From a virus: a DNA stretch of 64,000 bases. The position numbers and the translations under genes were made by a program. This document shows positions 14,700 to 27,118 of this stretch, piece by piece; within the stretch, counting starts at the first letter, position 1, and each line of letters begins with the position of its first letter. Under the pieces are notes generated by a model that did no database searches, had not been told where the DNA came from, and was given only the letters and a program-made list of their open reading frames with translations. The stretch covers positions 1 to 64,000 of IMG/VR virus record IMGVR_UViG_3300036831_000125; one strand, written 5' to 3'.

Positions 14700-14885
14700 A
14701 TGCGAGAGATTCATTGGTTTATCGAAATGAGCTTGGAGGGCTGCGAGCGCTCCGGCGTGCTCATGGTTGAGGACAACGCGACCGATGCCGAGATCGAAGA
14801 GGAGGTGCGCGACGAGGTGTTCGATAAAATCACCTGGGGCTGGGCGGAGAAAGGCGACGACGAGCTGAAAGGCGGTGGCCAATGA
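14700..14885 (+). CDS. Hypothetical acidic small phage protein
   Basis: A 61-residue acidic protein. MREIHWFIEMSLEG is a beta strand or short helix pair. DAEIEEEVRDEVFDKITWGW follows, a pattern I have seen in small phage proteins of unknown role. Its stop overlaps the HNH gene by ATGA. Confidence 0.64.
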   Translation: MREIHWFIEMSLEGCERSGVLMVEDNATDAEIEEEVRDEVFDKITWGWAEKGDDELKGGGQ

Positions 14886-15430
14886 GCGAGGAATGGCGCG
14901 CTATCGTTGGCTATGAAGGGCTGTATGAGGTTTCGGATCAGGGGCGCGTGCGATCAGTAGACCGCGTGGTGCATCGTCGTGGCTCATATCGGAACAGAGA
15001 ATGCGTGCAGCGCACCCGAGGCAGATTGCTACGCCCGGGGACAGACGACAAAGGTTATCGATATGTGAATCTGCATAAGGAAAATAAGGCCCGCACCATT
15101 TTTGTACATACGTTGGTGCTTGAAGCCTTCGTTGGGCCGCCTCCTTCTCCTCAACACGTATGTCGCCATGGCGACAATATCCCAGGGAATAACAAGAGCA
15201 AAAATCTCTGTTGGGGAACACAGAAGGAAAACAACAACGATAAATTAAAACACGGAACTCTTCTACATGGAGAAGACGTAGCGACCGCCATACTAAAGAA
15301 AGCTGATGTAATCAAGATAAGGCATCTTGTCTCTATCGGGCATACGCAGAGTAGCTTGGCGAAAGCGTATGGCGTCATACCTCAAACTATAAACGTCATA
15401 GTGAAACGCAAGACCTGGAGGCATGTATGA
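14882..15430 (+). CDS. NUMOD4-HNH homing endonuclease
   Basis: A 182-residue protein. The NUMOD4 module EEWRAIVGYEGLYEVSDQGRVRS opens it. An HNH core follows with FVHTLVLEAFVGPPP, the CRHGDNIPGNNKSKNL region and WGTQKENNND. The C-terminal part (IRHLVSIGHTQSSLAKAYGVI) is a helix-turn-helix. Free-standing homing endonucleases of this kind spread by nicking or cutting alleles lacking them. Its second half is clearly more AT-rich than its neighbours, a sign of recent arrival. It is seamlessly coupled by ATGA at both ends. Confidence 0.9.
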   Translation: MSEEWRAIVGYEGLYEVSDQGRVRSVDRVVHRRGSYRNRECVQRTRGRLLRPGTDDKGYRYVNLHKENKARTIFVHTLVLEAFVGPPPSPQHVCRHGDNIPGNNKSKNLCWGTQKENNNDKLKHGTLLHGEDVATAILKKADVIKIRHLVSIGHTQSSLAKAYGVIPQTINVIVKRKTWRHV

Positions 15431-19708: not shown

Positions 19709-20599
19709 ATGGACGAGGTGAAATCCGCTGAACTCATCGAATCCAAAGCACAAACCATCTTCGTGCTTGGCCGCACAGGAGGCGGCAAAACGGCACAAAT
19801 CGTCACCCTCCCAGGGAAGAAATTCGTCTATGTCTGGGAGCCCAACGCGATGGAGACTCTGCGCGGGTATAAGGGAATCGATTATCTCGATTTCATCCCG
19901 CAGGAAGACGAACTCGAAATCGCGCTCAAGGGGTTCAATCAAAACTCGCTGAACGATCGCAAGGGGAGTAAAGAGCCCAAGACCTTCGAACGCTGGCGGC
20001 ATGATTACGGCGAGCGGCGTAAATCCGGGTTCTTCCAGCAGTACGACTGGGTCTGCATCGATTCCTTCACCTTCATGGTATCGGCGATGATCGAGCGCCA
20101 GATGTTTCTCGATAAGCGCAACGGCGAACCGCCGGACATGGGCGATTACCGTGTCGTGGGTGATTCGCTCCGGCGCATCGTGCTTTCGATGCAGGCGCTC
20201 AAAGTCAATCTATTTTTCACCGGGCATTTGTCGGAATACCAAAACGAGAAGACGAAGATCATCACGGTGCAAGCGAACCTGCCCGGCCAATCTCGCACTC
20301 TCATCCCGCTCGGCTGCACCAACATCTGGCAGTGCGAGCATAACGGCGAAGCAAGCAAGGATTTCGTGATTCGGACCAAACCCGATTCACGCGGTCTGCG
20401 CGAGCTCCGCACCACCATTCCGAATCTTAAAGAGTTCGAAAACGTCACCATCCCAGTTGATGCCGCGGGGCGATTCGTCAATCCAGAAAAGCACGGCATC
20501 GGTGCGCTTCTTATGAGCGGCAAGAAGCCAGCGCCCGCAGCACCGAGCAAGCCTCCGCCGCCGCCTACTACCGCCGCTGCGGCGAAGATCACTGCCTAG
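19709..20599 (+). CDS. Sak4-like RecA-fold ATPase (recombination)
   Basis: A 296-residue protein. Walker A GRTGGGKT is at 21-28, Walker B reads WVCIDSFTFM, and the Mg-side motif NLFFTGHLSE is like those of phage Sak4 or AAA_24 ATPases. These proteins help single-strand annealing together with a DNA-binding partner. Here the next gene fits that partner. The last 30 residues are an Ala/Pro-rich tail. It forms a recombination set with the RecB-like nuclease upstream. Confidence 0.82.
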   Translation: MDEVKSAELIESKAQTIFVLGRTGGGKTAQIVTLPGKKFVYVWEPNAMETLRGYKGIDYLDFIPQEDELEIALKGFNQNSLNDRKGSKEPKTFERWRHDYGERRKSGFFQQYDWVCIDSFTFMVSAMIERQMFLDKRNGEPPDMGDYRVVGDSLRRIVLSMQALKVNLFFTGHLSEYQNEKTKIITVQANLPGQSRTLIPLGCTNIWQCEHNGEASKDFVIRTKPDSRGLRELRTTIPNLKEFENVTIPVDAAGRFVNPEKHGIGALLMSGKKPAPAAPSKPPPPPTTAAAAKITA

Positions 20600-20654: not shown

Positions 20655-21092
20655 ATGTCTATTATCACTGCCGAAGAATTGGGCGCCGATTATGAAGACG
20701 TCCCGGCACCCGAAGGCGAATACAGCGTGCGCATTCAAAAAGCCGAGGTCACAGACACCAAAGACGGCTTACGGCAGCGGCTTAAATTCGGTGCCATCAT
20801 CGAAGGAGGCGATTACGCCTATCTCAGCGATGGGCTGAATTTCCCGCTCAAAGAAGGCGGCGATGATAATTACCGCCGCATCTGTCGCGATTTCAGCAGA
20901 TTCTTTGCGCTCTTCGGAGTGTCGAACGAGATCCAGATCGACAAAGACGACGAAGCCAAAACGCTCAGCATTGTTAATGAAGCAGAGATCCCGCAGATCC
21001 TCGCCGGCAAGAGCGCCAATGTGTGGCTGGAGCAAAAGGCCGGCATGAGCGCGAACGAAACTGTCAATCGAATGAGGTTGCCGAAACGCTAA
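20655..21092 (+). CDS. DUF669-like ssDNA-binding protein
   Basis: A 145-residue acidic protein, probably beta-rich: PEGEYSVRIQKAEV, then RLKFGAIIEGG, then LNFPLKEGGDDNYRRICRDF. The pattern fits the DUF669/OB-fold proteins that follow Sak4 ATPases and bind single-stranded DNA. Residues 138-145 (MRLPKR) form a basic end. GTAGGAG lies before the ATG. I infer its function from position as much as from sequence. Confidence 0.62.
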   Translation: MSIITAEELGADYEDVPAPEGEYSVRIQKAEVTDTKDGLRQRLKFGAIIEGGDYAYLSDGLNFPLKEGGDDNYRRICRDFSRFFALFGVSNEIQIDKDDEAKTLSIVNEAEIPQILAGKSANVWLEQKAGMSANETVNRMRLPKR

Positions 21093-22472: not shown

Positions 22473-22823
22473 ATGAAGCTTGTTGTAGTGGAAAGTCCGT
22501 TCGCAGGTGCTGTGAAGCTGAATCTCGAATATGCCCGCGCCTGCATTCGTGACAGCCTTATGCGCGGCGAAGCGCCGTTCGCTTCTCACATCCTCTATAC
22601 CGGCGTGCTGCACGATGATGATTCCATGGAGCGCGAACTCGGCATGACCGCCGGCTTCATGTGGAGTCTGCACGCCACCCTTACCGCCGTCTATCAGGAT
22701 CGCGGCATCAGCAATGGCATGCGGCTGGGGATCGCCGCCGCCGAAAAGGCGAATCGCCCGATCGAGTACCGCAGCCTCAAAGGCTGGGGCTCGAACGTGC
22801 GCAACATCGGGGAGAAGACATGA
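22473..22823 (+). CDS. DUF7768-like (nucleoside deoxyribosyltransferase-like) protein
   Basis: A 116-residue protein with VVVESPFAGAVKLNLEYARACIRDSL, then GEAPFASHILYTGVLHDD. This is a Rossmann-like pattern seen in phage and bacterial proteins now called DUF7768, related in look to DUF4406 and deoxyribosyltransferases. A role in nucleotide metabolism or modification is plausible but unproven. The last part, NGMRLGIAAAEKANRPIEYRSL, matches the same family. Confidence 0.76.
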   Translation: MKLVVVESPFAGAVKLNLEYARACIRDSLMRGEAPFASHILYTGVLHDDDSMERELGMTAGFMWSLHATLTAVYQDRGISNGMRLGIAAAEKANRPIEYRSLKGWGSNVRNIGEKT

Positions 22824-23046: not shown

Positions 23047-23345
23047 TGCCCCAACCGACCAAAATTGTCTGGCGCGAATGGTTCAACAAAGCGGCGGTCG
23101 CGAAAATGACCGAGATGGGAACGTTGCCACGCCGAGAGACCTACATCGATACAAGATTCTCCGACGGCTGTGGTATCGCCGAGGAAATCGCGAAATCGGC
23201 AAATAATGAGGATTATGAGATGTTCGCTAAAAGCGGAGACGTCCTTGTGATCTTAGAGCCGGAGGAGTTTGCTGGGGCTTATCAAATCGAGGTCGACTTC
23301 GATCCGAACTTCACCGCAATCACGCATGAAGCTGATCTCGAATGA
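23046..23345 (+). CDS. Hypothetical protein
   Basis: A 99-residue protein. After a basic start (TKIVWREWFNKAA) it becomes acidic and mixed alpha/beta, with DGCGIAEEIAKSANNEDYEMF and VLVILEPEEFAGAYQIEVDF. It is coupled at both ends (TGATG and ATGA) and directly precedes the UDG-polymerase gene. Function is unknown. Confidence 0.6.
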   Translation: MPQPTKIVWREWFNKAAVAKMTEMGTLPRRETYIDTRFSDGCGIAEEIAKSANNEDYEMFAKSGDVLVILEPEEFAGAYQIEVDFDPNFTAITHEADLE

Positions 23346-25048
23346 CGTCGGCGTTTGAGGAAGGCGACCCAGCCACCGCTCGCATTGCCATTGTCGGCGA
23401 AGCCCCAAGCTACACCGAAATCCGCTCTGACCAGCCCTTCGTCGGACCATCCGGCCATCTTCTCAACCAACTCCTGCAAGCGGGGCAAATCCGCCGTGCC
23501 GACTGCTACATCACGAACGTCTTCGAAACCGAAGTCAAAAAGCCCAAAAAAGACGCCAGCAAGATCTTCTCGCAAAACGACGTCCTCCTCTGGACCGCGA
23601 AGAAAGGCTTCACCGAAGCTGGATTCGAGGCTTCGCGCGGATGCAGAGAACGCATTGCACGGTGCGCAGCGAATGTTATCTGCACTCTCGGGGCACCTGC
23701 TCTGCATCGCTTTGTCGATGTCCGCTCTATTAGCAAATGGCGGGGGAGCATTATCGAAGGGAGCGATGGGGAAAGGAAAAGGAAAGTCGTCGCGAGCTTC
23801 CACCCGAGCTATGCGCTCCAAGGCGCCTATGAAGCGCGCTACATCATTGCTGCCGACTTTAAGCGAGTCAAAGCGGAGAGCGTCGAGCCAGCCATTCGAT
23901 ATGATGTGCGCGAACTGCGGATCGATCCATCATTCGACGAGTGCATGTCCTTCTTACGACGTGCCCTCGACGCGCCAGCCATCAACACGGACATAGAGCT
24001 GCTGAACGGCAGCGTTGATTGCTTCTCGATCGCGCTTTCCCCAACTGAAGCCATCACCATCCCGCTGCTAGACGTGGGCTTCGATCATCGTTGGACGGCA
24101 GACGAAGAGCGCCAGATCTGGCAAGGATACGCGGCGCTGATCGCCGCGCCGCACATCACGAAAATCAATCAAAACATCGCCTTCGACCTGGCAGTGCTGC
24201 TGCAGCTGAACAGGATTCTTCCCGCCGGGCCGATCGCCGACTGCATGGTCGCGTTCAGCGTCATGAATCCCTTCCTCAAGAAATCCCTCGGCCTCATCAG
24301 CTCGCTCTACACCCGCGAGCCCTATTACAAAGATGATGGCGAGCTGCATGACTCCGTCGGAATTGATGATTTCAAGCGGCGGTGGCTTTATTGCGCGAAA
24401 GACTCTGTCGTGTCGCTGGAGAGCTGGCAGAAGCTCGATCGCGAGCTGGACGAAAAGGGGTATCGCAGCACCTATGACATGACAATGAATCTCGTGCCCT
24501 CACTGATCTGGATGATGGTGCGCGGGTTGCGTGTGAACTCGCCCGCGTTGCTTAAAACCAAGCACGATACGCAAGAAAAGATCGCCGCGCTGATGGCGCG
24601 CATGGCGGAGAGCTTCGGCCGGCCGATCATTAATCGGGCGCCGAAAACCGCTGCTGAAAAGCGCGCTGTGGCGGCGAGCGGGGCTATCAATATCAATTCG
24701 CAGAAGCAGCTCTGTGCGTATTTTTACGAAGAAAAGAAGCTCCGGCCGTATATCGGGGATTCTGGCGCCCAGACGTGTGATGACCTCGCGCTTTCCCGCA
24801 TCATCCGGCGCGATGGGCTGCACGAGGCGAAGCTCCTGCAAGACTACCGCACCCTCAACACGCTGCTGACGCGGTATTTGGATATTAATTTCGACGCCGA
24901 CGGCCGGGTGCGGTGTTCGTGGAATCCGCGCGGCACCTGGACGGGGCGGTTGAGCAGCAGCCAAACCGTGTTCGACACGGGCGGGAATTTACAAAATCTT
25001 CCCTACGACGTGCGCACCTTCATGGAGAGCGATTACGCCGATGCTTGA
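23342..25048 (+). CDS. UDG-like + 3'-5' exonuclease + N-terminal part of family A DNA polymerase
   Basis: A 568-residue protein with three modules. Residues 14-175 look like a family-4-type uracil-DNA glycosylase: GEAPS at 19-23, PFVGPSG, YITNVF and HPSY at 154-157. It has no cysteine pair before GEAPS, so an iron-sulphur cluster would be incomplete. Residues 212-360 are the proofreading exonuclease, with D217-x-E219, N278 plus FD 281-282, and Y349-x3-D353. The rest is the thumb and start of the palm, ending after GNLQNLPYDVRTF, just before motif A. The catalytic half is encoded separately at 25405. Two small genes lie between. It is the replicative polymerase candidate. Confidence 0.88.
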   Translation: MTSAFEEGDPATARIAIVGEAPSYTEIRSDQPFVGPSGHLLNQLLQAGQIRRADCYITNVFETEVKKPKKDASKIFSQNDVLLWTAKKGFTEAGFEASRGCRERIARCAANVICTLGAPALHRFVDVRSISKWRGSIIEGSDGERKRKVVASFHPSYALQGAYEARYIIAADFKRVKAESVEPAIRYDVRELRIDPSFDECMSFLRRALDAPAINTDIELLNGSVDCFSIALSPTEAITIPLLDVGFDHRWTADEERQIWQGYAALIAAPHITKINQNIAFDLAVLLQLNRILPAGPIADCMVAFSVMNPFLKKSLGLISSLYTREPYYKDDGELHDSVGIDDFKRRWLYCAKDSVVSLESWQKLDRELDEKGYRSTYDMTMNLVPSLIWMMVRGLRVNSPALLKTKHDTQEKIAALMARMAESFGRPIINRAPKTAAEKRAVAASGAININSQKQLCAYFYEEKKLRPYIGDSGAQTCDDLALSRIIRRDGLHEAKLLQDYRTLNTLLTRYLDINFDADGRVRCSWNPRGTWTGRLSSSQTVFDTGGNLQNLPYDVRTFMESDYADA

Positions 25049-25151
25049 ATTGACCTCGGAAACCTATGCCGGCCTGTGGTTTTGGCTTGGCTTCATGATG
25101 GGCGTGTTCTTTTATCAGACTGTCAGACTCATCATCGACCGTTGCAAGTGA
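25041..25151 (+). CDS. Tiny membrane protein inside the polymerase split
   Basis: A 36-residue frame. It starts MLELTSETYAGLWFWLGF and has one hydrophobic helix. The beginning resembles a copy of the polymerase motif-A strand (MLLEFDL at 25405) at the DNA level. It may have arisen by duplication at the insertion site rather than being a true gene. Confidence 0.4.
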   Translation: MLELTSETYAGLWFWLGFMMGVFFYQTVRLIIDRCK

Positions 25152-25163
25152 ACGATTACGCTG

Positions 25164-25415
25164 ATGCCGCATCAGAGATTTAGAATCGATCGCGATGACA
25201 GCCGGATGTATGCGACGTCGGTCGAATGGTGCGTGGTCGATCGGCGGCAGATGATTGAGGTTATGTGGTTTAAGCAGGTGCGCGAGGCGGAGTGGGTGTG
25301 TGAGGCGCTGAATCGCAAGGAAGATCTCGAAAACCTTAAGCGCGCATATCGGGCCCATATTAAGGAGCGCGGCGGCATGTTTTATGGCATAGGCGGTAAA
25401 GCAAATGCTGCTTGA
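25164..25415 (+). CDS. Hypothetical protein inside the polymerase split
   Basis: An 83-residue protein. YATSVEWCVVDRRQMIEVMWFKQVREAEWVCEALN is a small alpha/beta unit like other phage accessory proteins (strand, strand, helix). It is not an HNH, GIY-YIG or intein domain. It overlaps the start of the catalytic polymerase gene by 11 bases, so translation of that gene may depend on it. Confidence 0.6.
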   Translation: MPHQRFRIDRDDSRMYATSVEWCVVDRRQMIEVMWFKQVREAEWVCEALNRKEDLENLKRAYRAHIKERGGMFYGIGGKANAA

Positions 25416-26340
25416 GTTCGACCTCGCTGGAGCTGACTGGTTCGTTACCGCTTTCGTCGCGCGCGAGCCGAACATGATAGCCGTCTTCCGCGCTGGGAAA
25501 TCGCCACATCCCGTGACCGGCGCGCGCCTCACCGGCCTCTCGGAAGATCTCATTAAAGCCGAAGACAAAATGCTCGCGAAGCTGGTCGACTCGGGCGAGC
25601 GCATGGACCAAGACGGCATCGCTCGGATGCGGCGCGAGCATTTCCCCGAGATCCTCGCAGCGCCCTGGTTCCCGCGCACCTTCTCGATCCGCCAAGCCGC
25701 GAAGAAGGCCAATCATGGGCTGAACTACCGGCTGCAATACAAGACCTATTCGCTGAAGAACGAGATCCCTGAACGCGAAGCGAAGCAGGTCATCGATCTG
25801 TACCGCAAAAAAGCCTATCCGGGGCTCGCGGTTTCGGCGCGCGGGAATTTATGTTGGTACGACAGAATCGACAAGCAAATCCGCGACACACGGACGATGA
25901 AGAACTGCTTCGGCCGAACGGTGTATTTCAGTGGGGCGCTGGACGATGACACCTTTCGCGAAGCGACGTCATTCGTGCCGCAGAGCACGGTGTTCGATGT
26001 TACTGGGCGGGCGATGCATTTGATGATGGAAGATGATTCAGCGGATTTCGCGCCGGCTGAAAAGCTCGCCCAGGTGCATGATTCGCTGTTGTTTCAATAT
26101 CTGAGTCTCGATTTTGCAGCGATGGCACGATTCGCGATTAAATTCGGGCTCGATTACATGTCGCCGACGCTGGACTACGGCGAGCCTTTTACGCTGGGCG
26201 TTGGGCTGAAGGTGGGCAGGAATTGGGGCGGTCTGAAAGAAATTAAGCTGACGCCCGATGTTGAGGCGCTGACAGGAGAATTTCGCAGAGTCTGGGAAGA
26301 AACCGCAGGGCGAGCGCCGCCGCTTACTTTAGCGGCATAA
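25405..26340 (+). CDS. Family A DNA polymerase, catalytic (palm-fingers) part
   Basis: A 311-residue protein with only the catalytic core. Motif A is EFDLAGADW at residues 4-12, with metal-binding D6. The fingers motif is R96-x3-K100-x3-H104-x3-Y108. Motif C is VHDS at 224-227. Compared with E. coli Pol I, the Glu of motif A is Asp (D11), F762 is His (H104), and the last Glu of HDE is Ser. The first catalytic half is in the 23342 gene. Both halves are intact frames, so they probably assemble as two chains. Confidence 0.88.
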   Translation: MLLEFDLAGADWFVTAFVAREPNMIAVFRAGKSPHPVTGARLTGLSEDLIKAEDKMLAKLVDSGERMDQDGIARMRREHFPEILAAPWFPRTFSIRQAAKKANHGLNYRLQYKTYSLKNEIPEREAKQVIDLYRKKAYPGLAVSARGNLCWYDRIDKQIRDTRTMKNCFGRTVYFSGALDDDTFREATSFVPQSTVFDVTGRAMHLMMEDDSADFAPAEKLAQVHDSLLFQYLSLDFAAMARFAIKFGLDYMSPTLDYGEPFTLGVGLKVGRNWGGLKEIKLTPDVEALTGEFRRVWEETAGRAPPLTLAA

Positions 26341-26614: not shown

Positions 26615-27118
26615 TCACCTCGCCGCCTGCATCAAAAACCCTAAATCACACTTCTCCGCCGCGTTCGCCAGCGCCTGCCGGCCTTGCCAGCCGATCGCCA
26701 TCAGACACGTCCCCTGCGCAGGGGATTTCCCAGGCTCGCCATCATCGCCGATGAATTTGATCTTATATTTCACGAACAGAATCAGATCCATTTTCGGCGC
26801 GTATTCCTGCCACCAGGGCGCCGACGTCCGATCGGGCACCAGGCATATCCCATTACCATGTGCCACGAAGCGCTTCAGCCACGGCACCAGCCCATTTCGG
26901 CCGCCGAAGGGAGGGTTCATCCAGACCAACCCATGCCAGGGCTGATCGAGGCTGTCAGCGGTGAGGAACTGGGCGGCGGGTATCCAAGGGGTTTTGTCGC
27001 GGCCGGGGCTGGCGACGTCCATGTCGAAGCGGACCCCGAGCGAAGAGAAGATGTAGCTGGGCGTATACCATTCGTCGGAGGCACCGACGGCTTGCTCATG
27101 CAGGGCCATTTTCTTCAT
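26615..27118 (-). CDS. Dam-like DNA N6-adenine methyltransferase
   Basis: A 167-residue protein. DEWYTP near residue 15, FDMDVAS in the middle and VWMNPPFGG at 66-73 match phage Dam-type N6-adenine methyltransferases. NPPF is the DPPY-type catalytic motif. Later motifs such as CLVPDRTSAPWWQEY fit the same family. It would modify phage DNA, perhaps against restriction. It overlaps the gene upstream by ATGA. A second ATG at 27109 (MALHEQ) is a possible start. Confidence 0.86.
   Translation of the reverse strand: MKKMALHEQAVGASDEWYTPSYIFSSLGVRFDMDVASPGRDKTPWIPAAQFLTADSLDQPWHGLVWMNPPFGGRNGLVPWLKRFVAHGNGICLVPDRTSAPWWQEYAPKMDLILFVKYKIKFIGDDGEPGKSPAQGTCLMAIGWQGRQALANAAEKCDLGFLMQAAR

Follow-up and report, generated by a model that had tools for sequence, protein, structure and literature searches.

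A putative UDG-fused family A DNA polymerase encoded in two halves in a virus genome, and the recurrence of its break before motif A

In textbooks, a family A DNA polymerase is a 'right hand' formed by one chain. Split versions have already been described, and the closest is that of the Methylophilales phages MEP401 and MEP402, published in 2023, in which two ORFs, with a small ORF of no assigned function between them, encode a family A polymerase whose domains are divided in the same way as in the one we report here, and for which an intron was suggested (PMC10580990; OP830906). The accessible part of that paper leaves the intron open, does not map the break and reports nothing outside their group. 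In MEP401 the break lies immediately ahead of motif A (gp13 ends in LFLSRYGE and gp15 starts MILNADAKALEW), as it does in our locus, but these phages lack a UDG domain and their polymerase is of a distant type. The same break before motif A is found in the Alcaligenes phage vB_Af_QDWS535 (OK172329), where both halves are annotated as family A polymerase, but again there is no UDG domain, and the halves overlap by one base (TAATG) with no spacer; we found no paper on this phage.

Closer in domain content is the Vibrio phage ABTNL-3 (our locus L135), with a UDG–exonuclease–thumb chain of 568 aa and a separate palm/fingers chain with one gene between them, though here the break is upstream of that in our locus, right after LQNLP, and of separate origin (see below). 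This split is known from annotation, as we found no paper discussing it and the literature match for ABTNL-3 concerns the capsid only. A UDG-fused split copy is present without comment in the public record MF497422. Unsplit phage fusions such as those of Desulfofustis phage OP947158 (31% identity to polN, described below) and L018 have the same UDG–exonuclease–polymerase domain order but in a single chain of 800–900 aa.

Other essential phage enzymes are also made as two reassembling chains, as we infer for our locus: gp43A and gp43B (PolB) of the T4-type phage 25 co-purify as an active enzyme, and nrdA is split in Aeh1, but these are a family B polymerase and an RNR, and seg/mob homing endonucleases or an untranslated insert accompany them (PMC2988022). 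Further known cases are a PolB that is split and carries a split intein (PMC6892783), and Pol III alpha in split form (PMC7824862). Neither of two surveys of viral PolA mentions splits or UDG domains (PMC6302109, PMC9069017), and in the open-access literature (most subscription journals fall outside it) we found no paper on a UDG-fused split clade or on recurrence of the break. The original prediction that such a split was not known is corrected by the UDG-less MEP401/402 case and by the uncommented UDG-fused copy in MF497422. It is this clade of UDG-fused split polymerases and the convergence of the break that appear to be new here, and not the split family A polymerase itself.

Domain content and predicted structure of the two halves

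The window (the whole stretch of DNA analysed, 64,000 nucleotides of the virus record IMGVR_UViG_3300036831_000125) contains two genes, polN and polC, on the + strand and exactly 356 nt apart, with the following features:

23342..25048, + strand: polN, 568 aa, UDG-like domain, 3'-5' exonuclease and thumb/N-palm (ORF call, Pfam, AlphaFold, Foldseek)
23357..23827, + strand: UDG-superfamily domain of polN, residues 6–162, with GEAP-type motif, N59 and HP motif (H154) (Pfam PF03167, 1.3e-19)
24095..24448, + strand: 3'-5' exonuclease domain of polN, PF01612 stretch at residues 252–369 (DNA_pol_A_exo1, 8.4e-6)
24650..25006, + strand: polymerase N-terminal part/thumb in polN (PF00476), ending just past GNLQN
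25405..26340, + strand: polC, 311 aa, motif A, fingers (motif B) and palm (motif C) (ORF call, PF00476, AlphaFold, Foldseek)
25420..25422, + strand: catalytic Asp of motif A (D6 in polC), kept in 35/35 of the split clade
25690..25728, + strand: motif B R96..K100..H104..Y108 of polC (K100, H104 and Y108 in 35/35, R96 in 33/35)
26077..26082, + strand: motif C H225-D226 of polC (D226 in 35/35, H225 in 34/35)

Two uninterrupted frames had been predicted at this place, the first with a UDG-like domain, exonuclease and thumb, and the second opening at motif A and holding the fingers and motif C. The ORF call recovered both without internal stops, and Pfam (UDG, DNA_pol_A_exo1 and the first third of DNA_pol_A in polN; PF00476 columns ~142–380 in polC) agreed with the division, as did PDB profile searches, which matched polN with UDG and the Klenow exonuclease/thumb, and polC with the Klenow/Taq palm and fingers. 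In polN, residues 437–555 correspond to DNA_pol_A columns 17–133, and polC matches the same profile at 2.4e-15 with a best stretch of columns 206–380; a PF00476 search of the whole record also matched columns 142–213, the motif A stretch, in the polC frame, so that the columns run in order across the pair (17–134, 142–213, 206–380). The motif A Asp, motif B R..K..Y and motif C Asp in a Pol I fold, together with PF00476 matches above cut-off, place the enzyme in family A, and the single chain of thumb, palm and fingers that is usual but not strictly defining for this family is replaced by two ORFs with several stops between them. Together, polN and polC tile one polymerase of family A and keep every conserved residue, and the earlier proposal of one polymerase in two chains, one of them with a UDG-like domain, is the best reading of the pair.

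The exonuclease is DnaQ-like, with ExoI D-x-E, ExoII NxxxFD (N278 in 34/35 of the split clade) and ExoIII YxxxD; of its catalytic residues, D217 and E219 are just upstream of the Pfam stretch and D282, Y350 and D354 are within it. The N-terminal domain belongs to the UDG superfamily by its PF03167 match and its GEAP-type and HP motifs, and may excise uracil from DNA. In family 4 UDGs an N-terminal CxxC belongs to the Fe-S site; we do not assign the polN domain to this family because there is no CxxC ahead of its GEAP motif, nor is one conserved in the clade alignment.

AlphaFold models of the separate chains have mean pLDDT values of 94.5 for polC and 90.5 for polN. The polC model opens on the strand bearing D6 and that of polN ends in a short strand after F560. 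Foldseek matched polC with Pol I large fragments (E 3e-9; Klenow, Taq and Bst among the matches) and polN with Klenow and UDGs (Thermotoga, i.e. T. maritima, UDG with TMt 0.71).

Relatives, selection and the position of the break

A search with polN found 80 viral loci, most of which encode a single uninterrupted UDG–exonuclease–polymerase chain of about 800–900 aa, and the nearest relatives, L013/L026 (53% identity) and L004–L009 (about 43%), have their polymerase split at the same place. The polC sequence alone found no related locus and an eight-row profile was needed; this found 47 loci, nearly all split at the same place (one, L136, sits in a Bacteroidetes MAG contig). When aligned to full-length viral polymerases, the end of the polN model and the start of the polC model abut within a few residues (e.g. 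in the unsplit L017, polN column 543 falls at residue 538 and polC column 3 at residue 540).

The polN C-terminus lies about eight residues past the conserved F following GNLQN and polC begins five residues ahead of the motif A aspartate, and together these approximate the spacing seen in unsplit proteins. In nearly all split loci polC has its own ATG, GTG or TTG 5–11 residues before motif A. The break is of the MEP401 type: it parts the conserved F that follows LQN from the strand of motif A, and the downstream gene has a separate start codon. In an alignment with Pol I it falls at the turn of a hairpin in the palm, about five residues before the aspartate which we take to be E. coli D705.

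A search for the same break among relatives, proposed with the original prediction, yielded 35 distinct loci diverged down to ~35% identity, and in a tree of 101 polymerases these form one clade (SH-aLRT 99). Beside these rows stand the unsplit L129 and also L113, L119 and L130, which are split between the exonuclease and thumb. This second break recurs in L086 (Kuura) and L087 (MW202554), with other genes lying between the parts.

Within the split clade, exonuclease residues D217, E219, D282, Y350 and D354 are kept in all 35 rows, as are H154 and P155 of the UDG-like domain (N59 in 34/35 and E20 in 28/35), and GRLSSS and GNLQN are conserved in the polN thumb/N-palm. For diverged pairs with finite dS, dN/dS was 0.046–0.093 for polN and 0.042–0.149 for polC (near-identical pairs have too few changes to judge), and purifying selection acts on both halves. 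The polN and polC distance matrices are correlated (r=0.80, Mantel 0/2000), a congruence also expected of any two co-inherited genes.

Outside the 35-row clade, a break close before motif A was found in L046, L067 and ABTNL-3. A single origin for all splits was rejected by the AU test (p 4e-57; individually, 9e-39 for L135, 2e-9 for L067 and 3e-5 for L046), which used 37 rows and LG+G4 and shares the limits of this model on long branches, where these three loci sit with their exact placement uncertain. The pre-motif-A break would seem to have been remade in each of them besides the clade, and to be convergent. The hand is cut in the palm beside the catalytic aspartate; a deep clade of phages has retained this cut, and lineages unrelated to it have made it anew. 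The split appears from these comparisons to be a stable and repeatedly invented design; sequencing error is excluded because 35 distinct loci share the break. Going further, we tentatively suggest that the break may be a general and repeatedly selected architecture of phage family A polymerases, with at least four origins among UDG-fused proteins and again among those without UDG, providing a stable heterodimer whose subunits can be separately made, exchanged or regulated.

These loci provide natural two-chain polymerases with cultured representatives as a test set, and the permissive break site could be useful for split-polymerase engineering. We note that surveys and annotation which demand a full-length PolA will miss or miscount phages with split polymerases.

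The spacer and alternative readings of the pair

The length of the intervening stretch had been given exactly as 356 bases; it is not empty, however, and holds two ORFs:

25041..25151, + strand: 36-aa hydrophobic ORF, its start overlapping the polN stop
25164..25415, + strand: 83-aa ORF, its end overlapping the polC start by 11 nt

The 36-aa ORF has no PHROGs match (the one scan made for it), the 83-aa ORF no Pfam or PHROGs match, and neither has a homologue in the fetched loci. The spacer carries stops in every frame, and no read-through joins polN to polC. In relatives with the same break the spacer can be as short as 42 nt (L124) or as long as about 3.4 kb (L133), and the genes in it vary (GH25 lysozyme, M15 peptidases with peptidoglycan-binding domains, ThyX, subtilase, methyltransferase, MazG and small ORFs). 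The GH25 lysozyme genes, between the polymerase halves in L097, L098, L099, L117 and L126, are at an odd site for a lysis gene. No homing endonuclease was recognised by Pfam among 60 spacer ORFs from this clade and other split loci. A resemblance between the polN end (TGCTTGAATT-GACCTCG) and the polC start (TGCTTGAGTTCGACCTCG) was considered as a junction duplication and dropped, as 96/1839 random windows score equally.

We consider it highly probable that polN and polC belong to the same replication operon as separate cistrons and that their products are the two subunits of one heterodimeric family A replicase. This is the best-supported reading because of the intact ORFs, complementary domains, kept catalytic residues, purifying selection, congruence and separately foldable models. 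Each chain would fold largely alone. The cut lies in the turn of a palm beta-hairpin, polC opening with the motif A aspartate strand, and the palm sheet would be re-formed non-covalently between the chains. Association would join the UDG, proofreading and thumb parts of polN with the catalytic palm and fingers of polC, the chains presumably assembling into an active enzyme in which the UDG-like domain may scan the template or newly made DNA in search of uracil or a similar base. The split probably arose when DNA was inserted ahead of motif A, at a site that tolerates it, after which the 3' half would have been translated from its own start codon and the spacer would have become a docking place for ordinary phage genes. 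This origin is unproved because no homing endonuclease family was recognised in the scanned spacer ORFs; one may have been present ancestrally and since lost from the spacer.

The alternative that survives best, while still unlikely, is that polN works mainly alone in repair, as a UDG–exonuclease, and some other partner recruits polC, in which case the two are not one enzyme. The confident model of polN as a lone chain is consistent with this, as is the separation of a UDG–exonuclease gene from the polymerase in Kuura, MW202554, L113, L119 and L130, but polN keeps a thumb and N-palm which would be useless without polC, polC has no thumb to bind the primer-template, and the two distance matrices correlate.

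We regard as very improbable a single polymerase gene interrupted by a self-splicing intron as small as the gap (about 356 nt), even though phage DNA polymerase genes can contain group I introns and the MEP401 authors suggested an intron at this same break (PMC10580990). Rfam found no group I or II intron at either gathering or relaxed thresholds, the second half begins at a start codon of its own and the ORFs in the gap overlap the adjacent genes, as is usual in operons. That the 356 bases are spliced out is very unlikely because the spacers at this break run from the one-base overlap of QDWS535 through 42 nt to kilobases of unrelated genes (lysozyme, ThyX, subtilase and methyltransferase), and this set of spacers also weakens the intron suggestion published for MEP401.

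A decaying pseudogene, or a frameshift or assembly artefact of an intact polymerase, might be suspected given that most UDG–PolA relatives are unsplit and that L072 has an extra break elsewhere, but is hardly credible against the 35 distinct split loci, the low dN/dS of both halves, the retention of all catalytic residues and the split copies in genomes of cultured phages. Least probable of all, to the point of being negligible, is protein trans-splicing of polN and polC by a split intein of the sort found in phage PolB (MIJ3, PMC6892783): homologous inteins do occur in motif B of L013 and L011, but these are uninterrupted and act in cis, and between the ends of the two chains there is no room, with no extra sequence for an Int-N at the polN end or an Int-C at the polC start.

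Neighbouring genes and minor observations

The polN/polC pair is the only PF00476 match in the record, and no family B or III-alpha DNA polymerase was found in it by searches whose controls gave matches. The pair is the only DNA polymerase detected here, although the record (66.5 kb) is linear and possibly a fragment, and a second one elsewhere is conceivable. Two genes lie upstream in the replication module:

19709..20599, + strand: Sak4-like ATPase (phrog_124, 1.5e-15), with 68 matches among the fetched loci
20655..21092, + strand: DUF669-like protein (PF05037, a weak match of 19.1 bits and below cut-off), with 32 matches among the fetched loci

The same module includes an HNH endonuclease gene ~8 kb upstream of polN (14882–15430, +; phrog_1492, 8.6e-50). 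An Endonuclease VII search of the record gave no match, but control genomes gave none either.

Among the relatives, the polN-type gene of L072 (L072:5983-8389) has a frame change between residues 256 and 257 with overlapping ORFs, which is either a frameshift error or a further split. Homologous inteins in polymerase motif B (GKK/C...GN/SNHSLNY) are found in the split polC of L013 (L013:8630-10522) and in the unsplit polymerase of L011 (L011:5530-8901); the L011 insert had been considered as an element at the break site and was rejected as such, being this motif B intein. Residue 104 of polC (25714–25716), four after the motif B lysine, is His in all 35 rows of the split clade and aligns with F762 of E. 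coli Pol I, a position at which His is not mentioned in the two viral PolA surveys (PMC6302109, PMC9069017).

Close upstream of polN is a nucleoside 2-deoxyribosyltransferase-like gene (22473–22823, +; phrog_355, 4e-22) with a homologue in L013/L026, and convergent with polC is a phage DNA methyltransferase gene (26615–27118, −; phrog_111), which may be relevant to base modification and to the role of the UDG-like domain.
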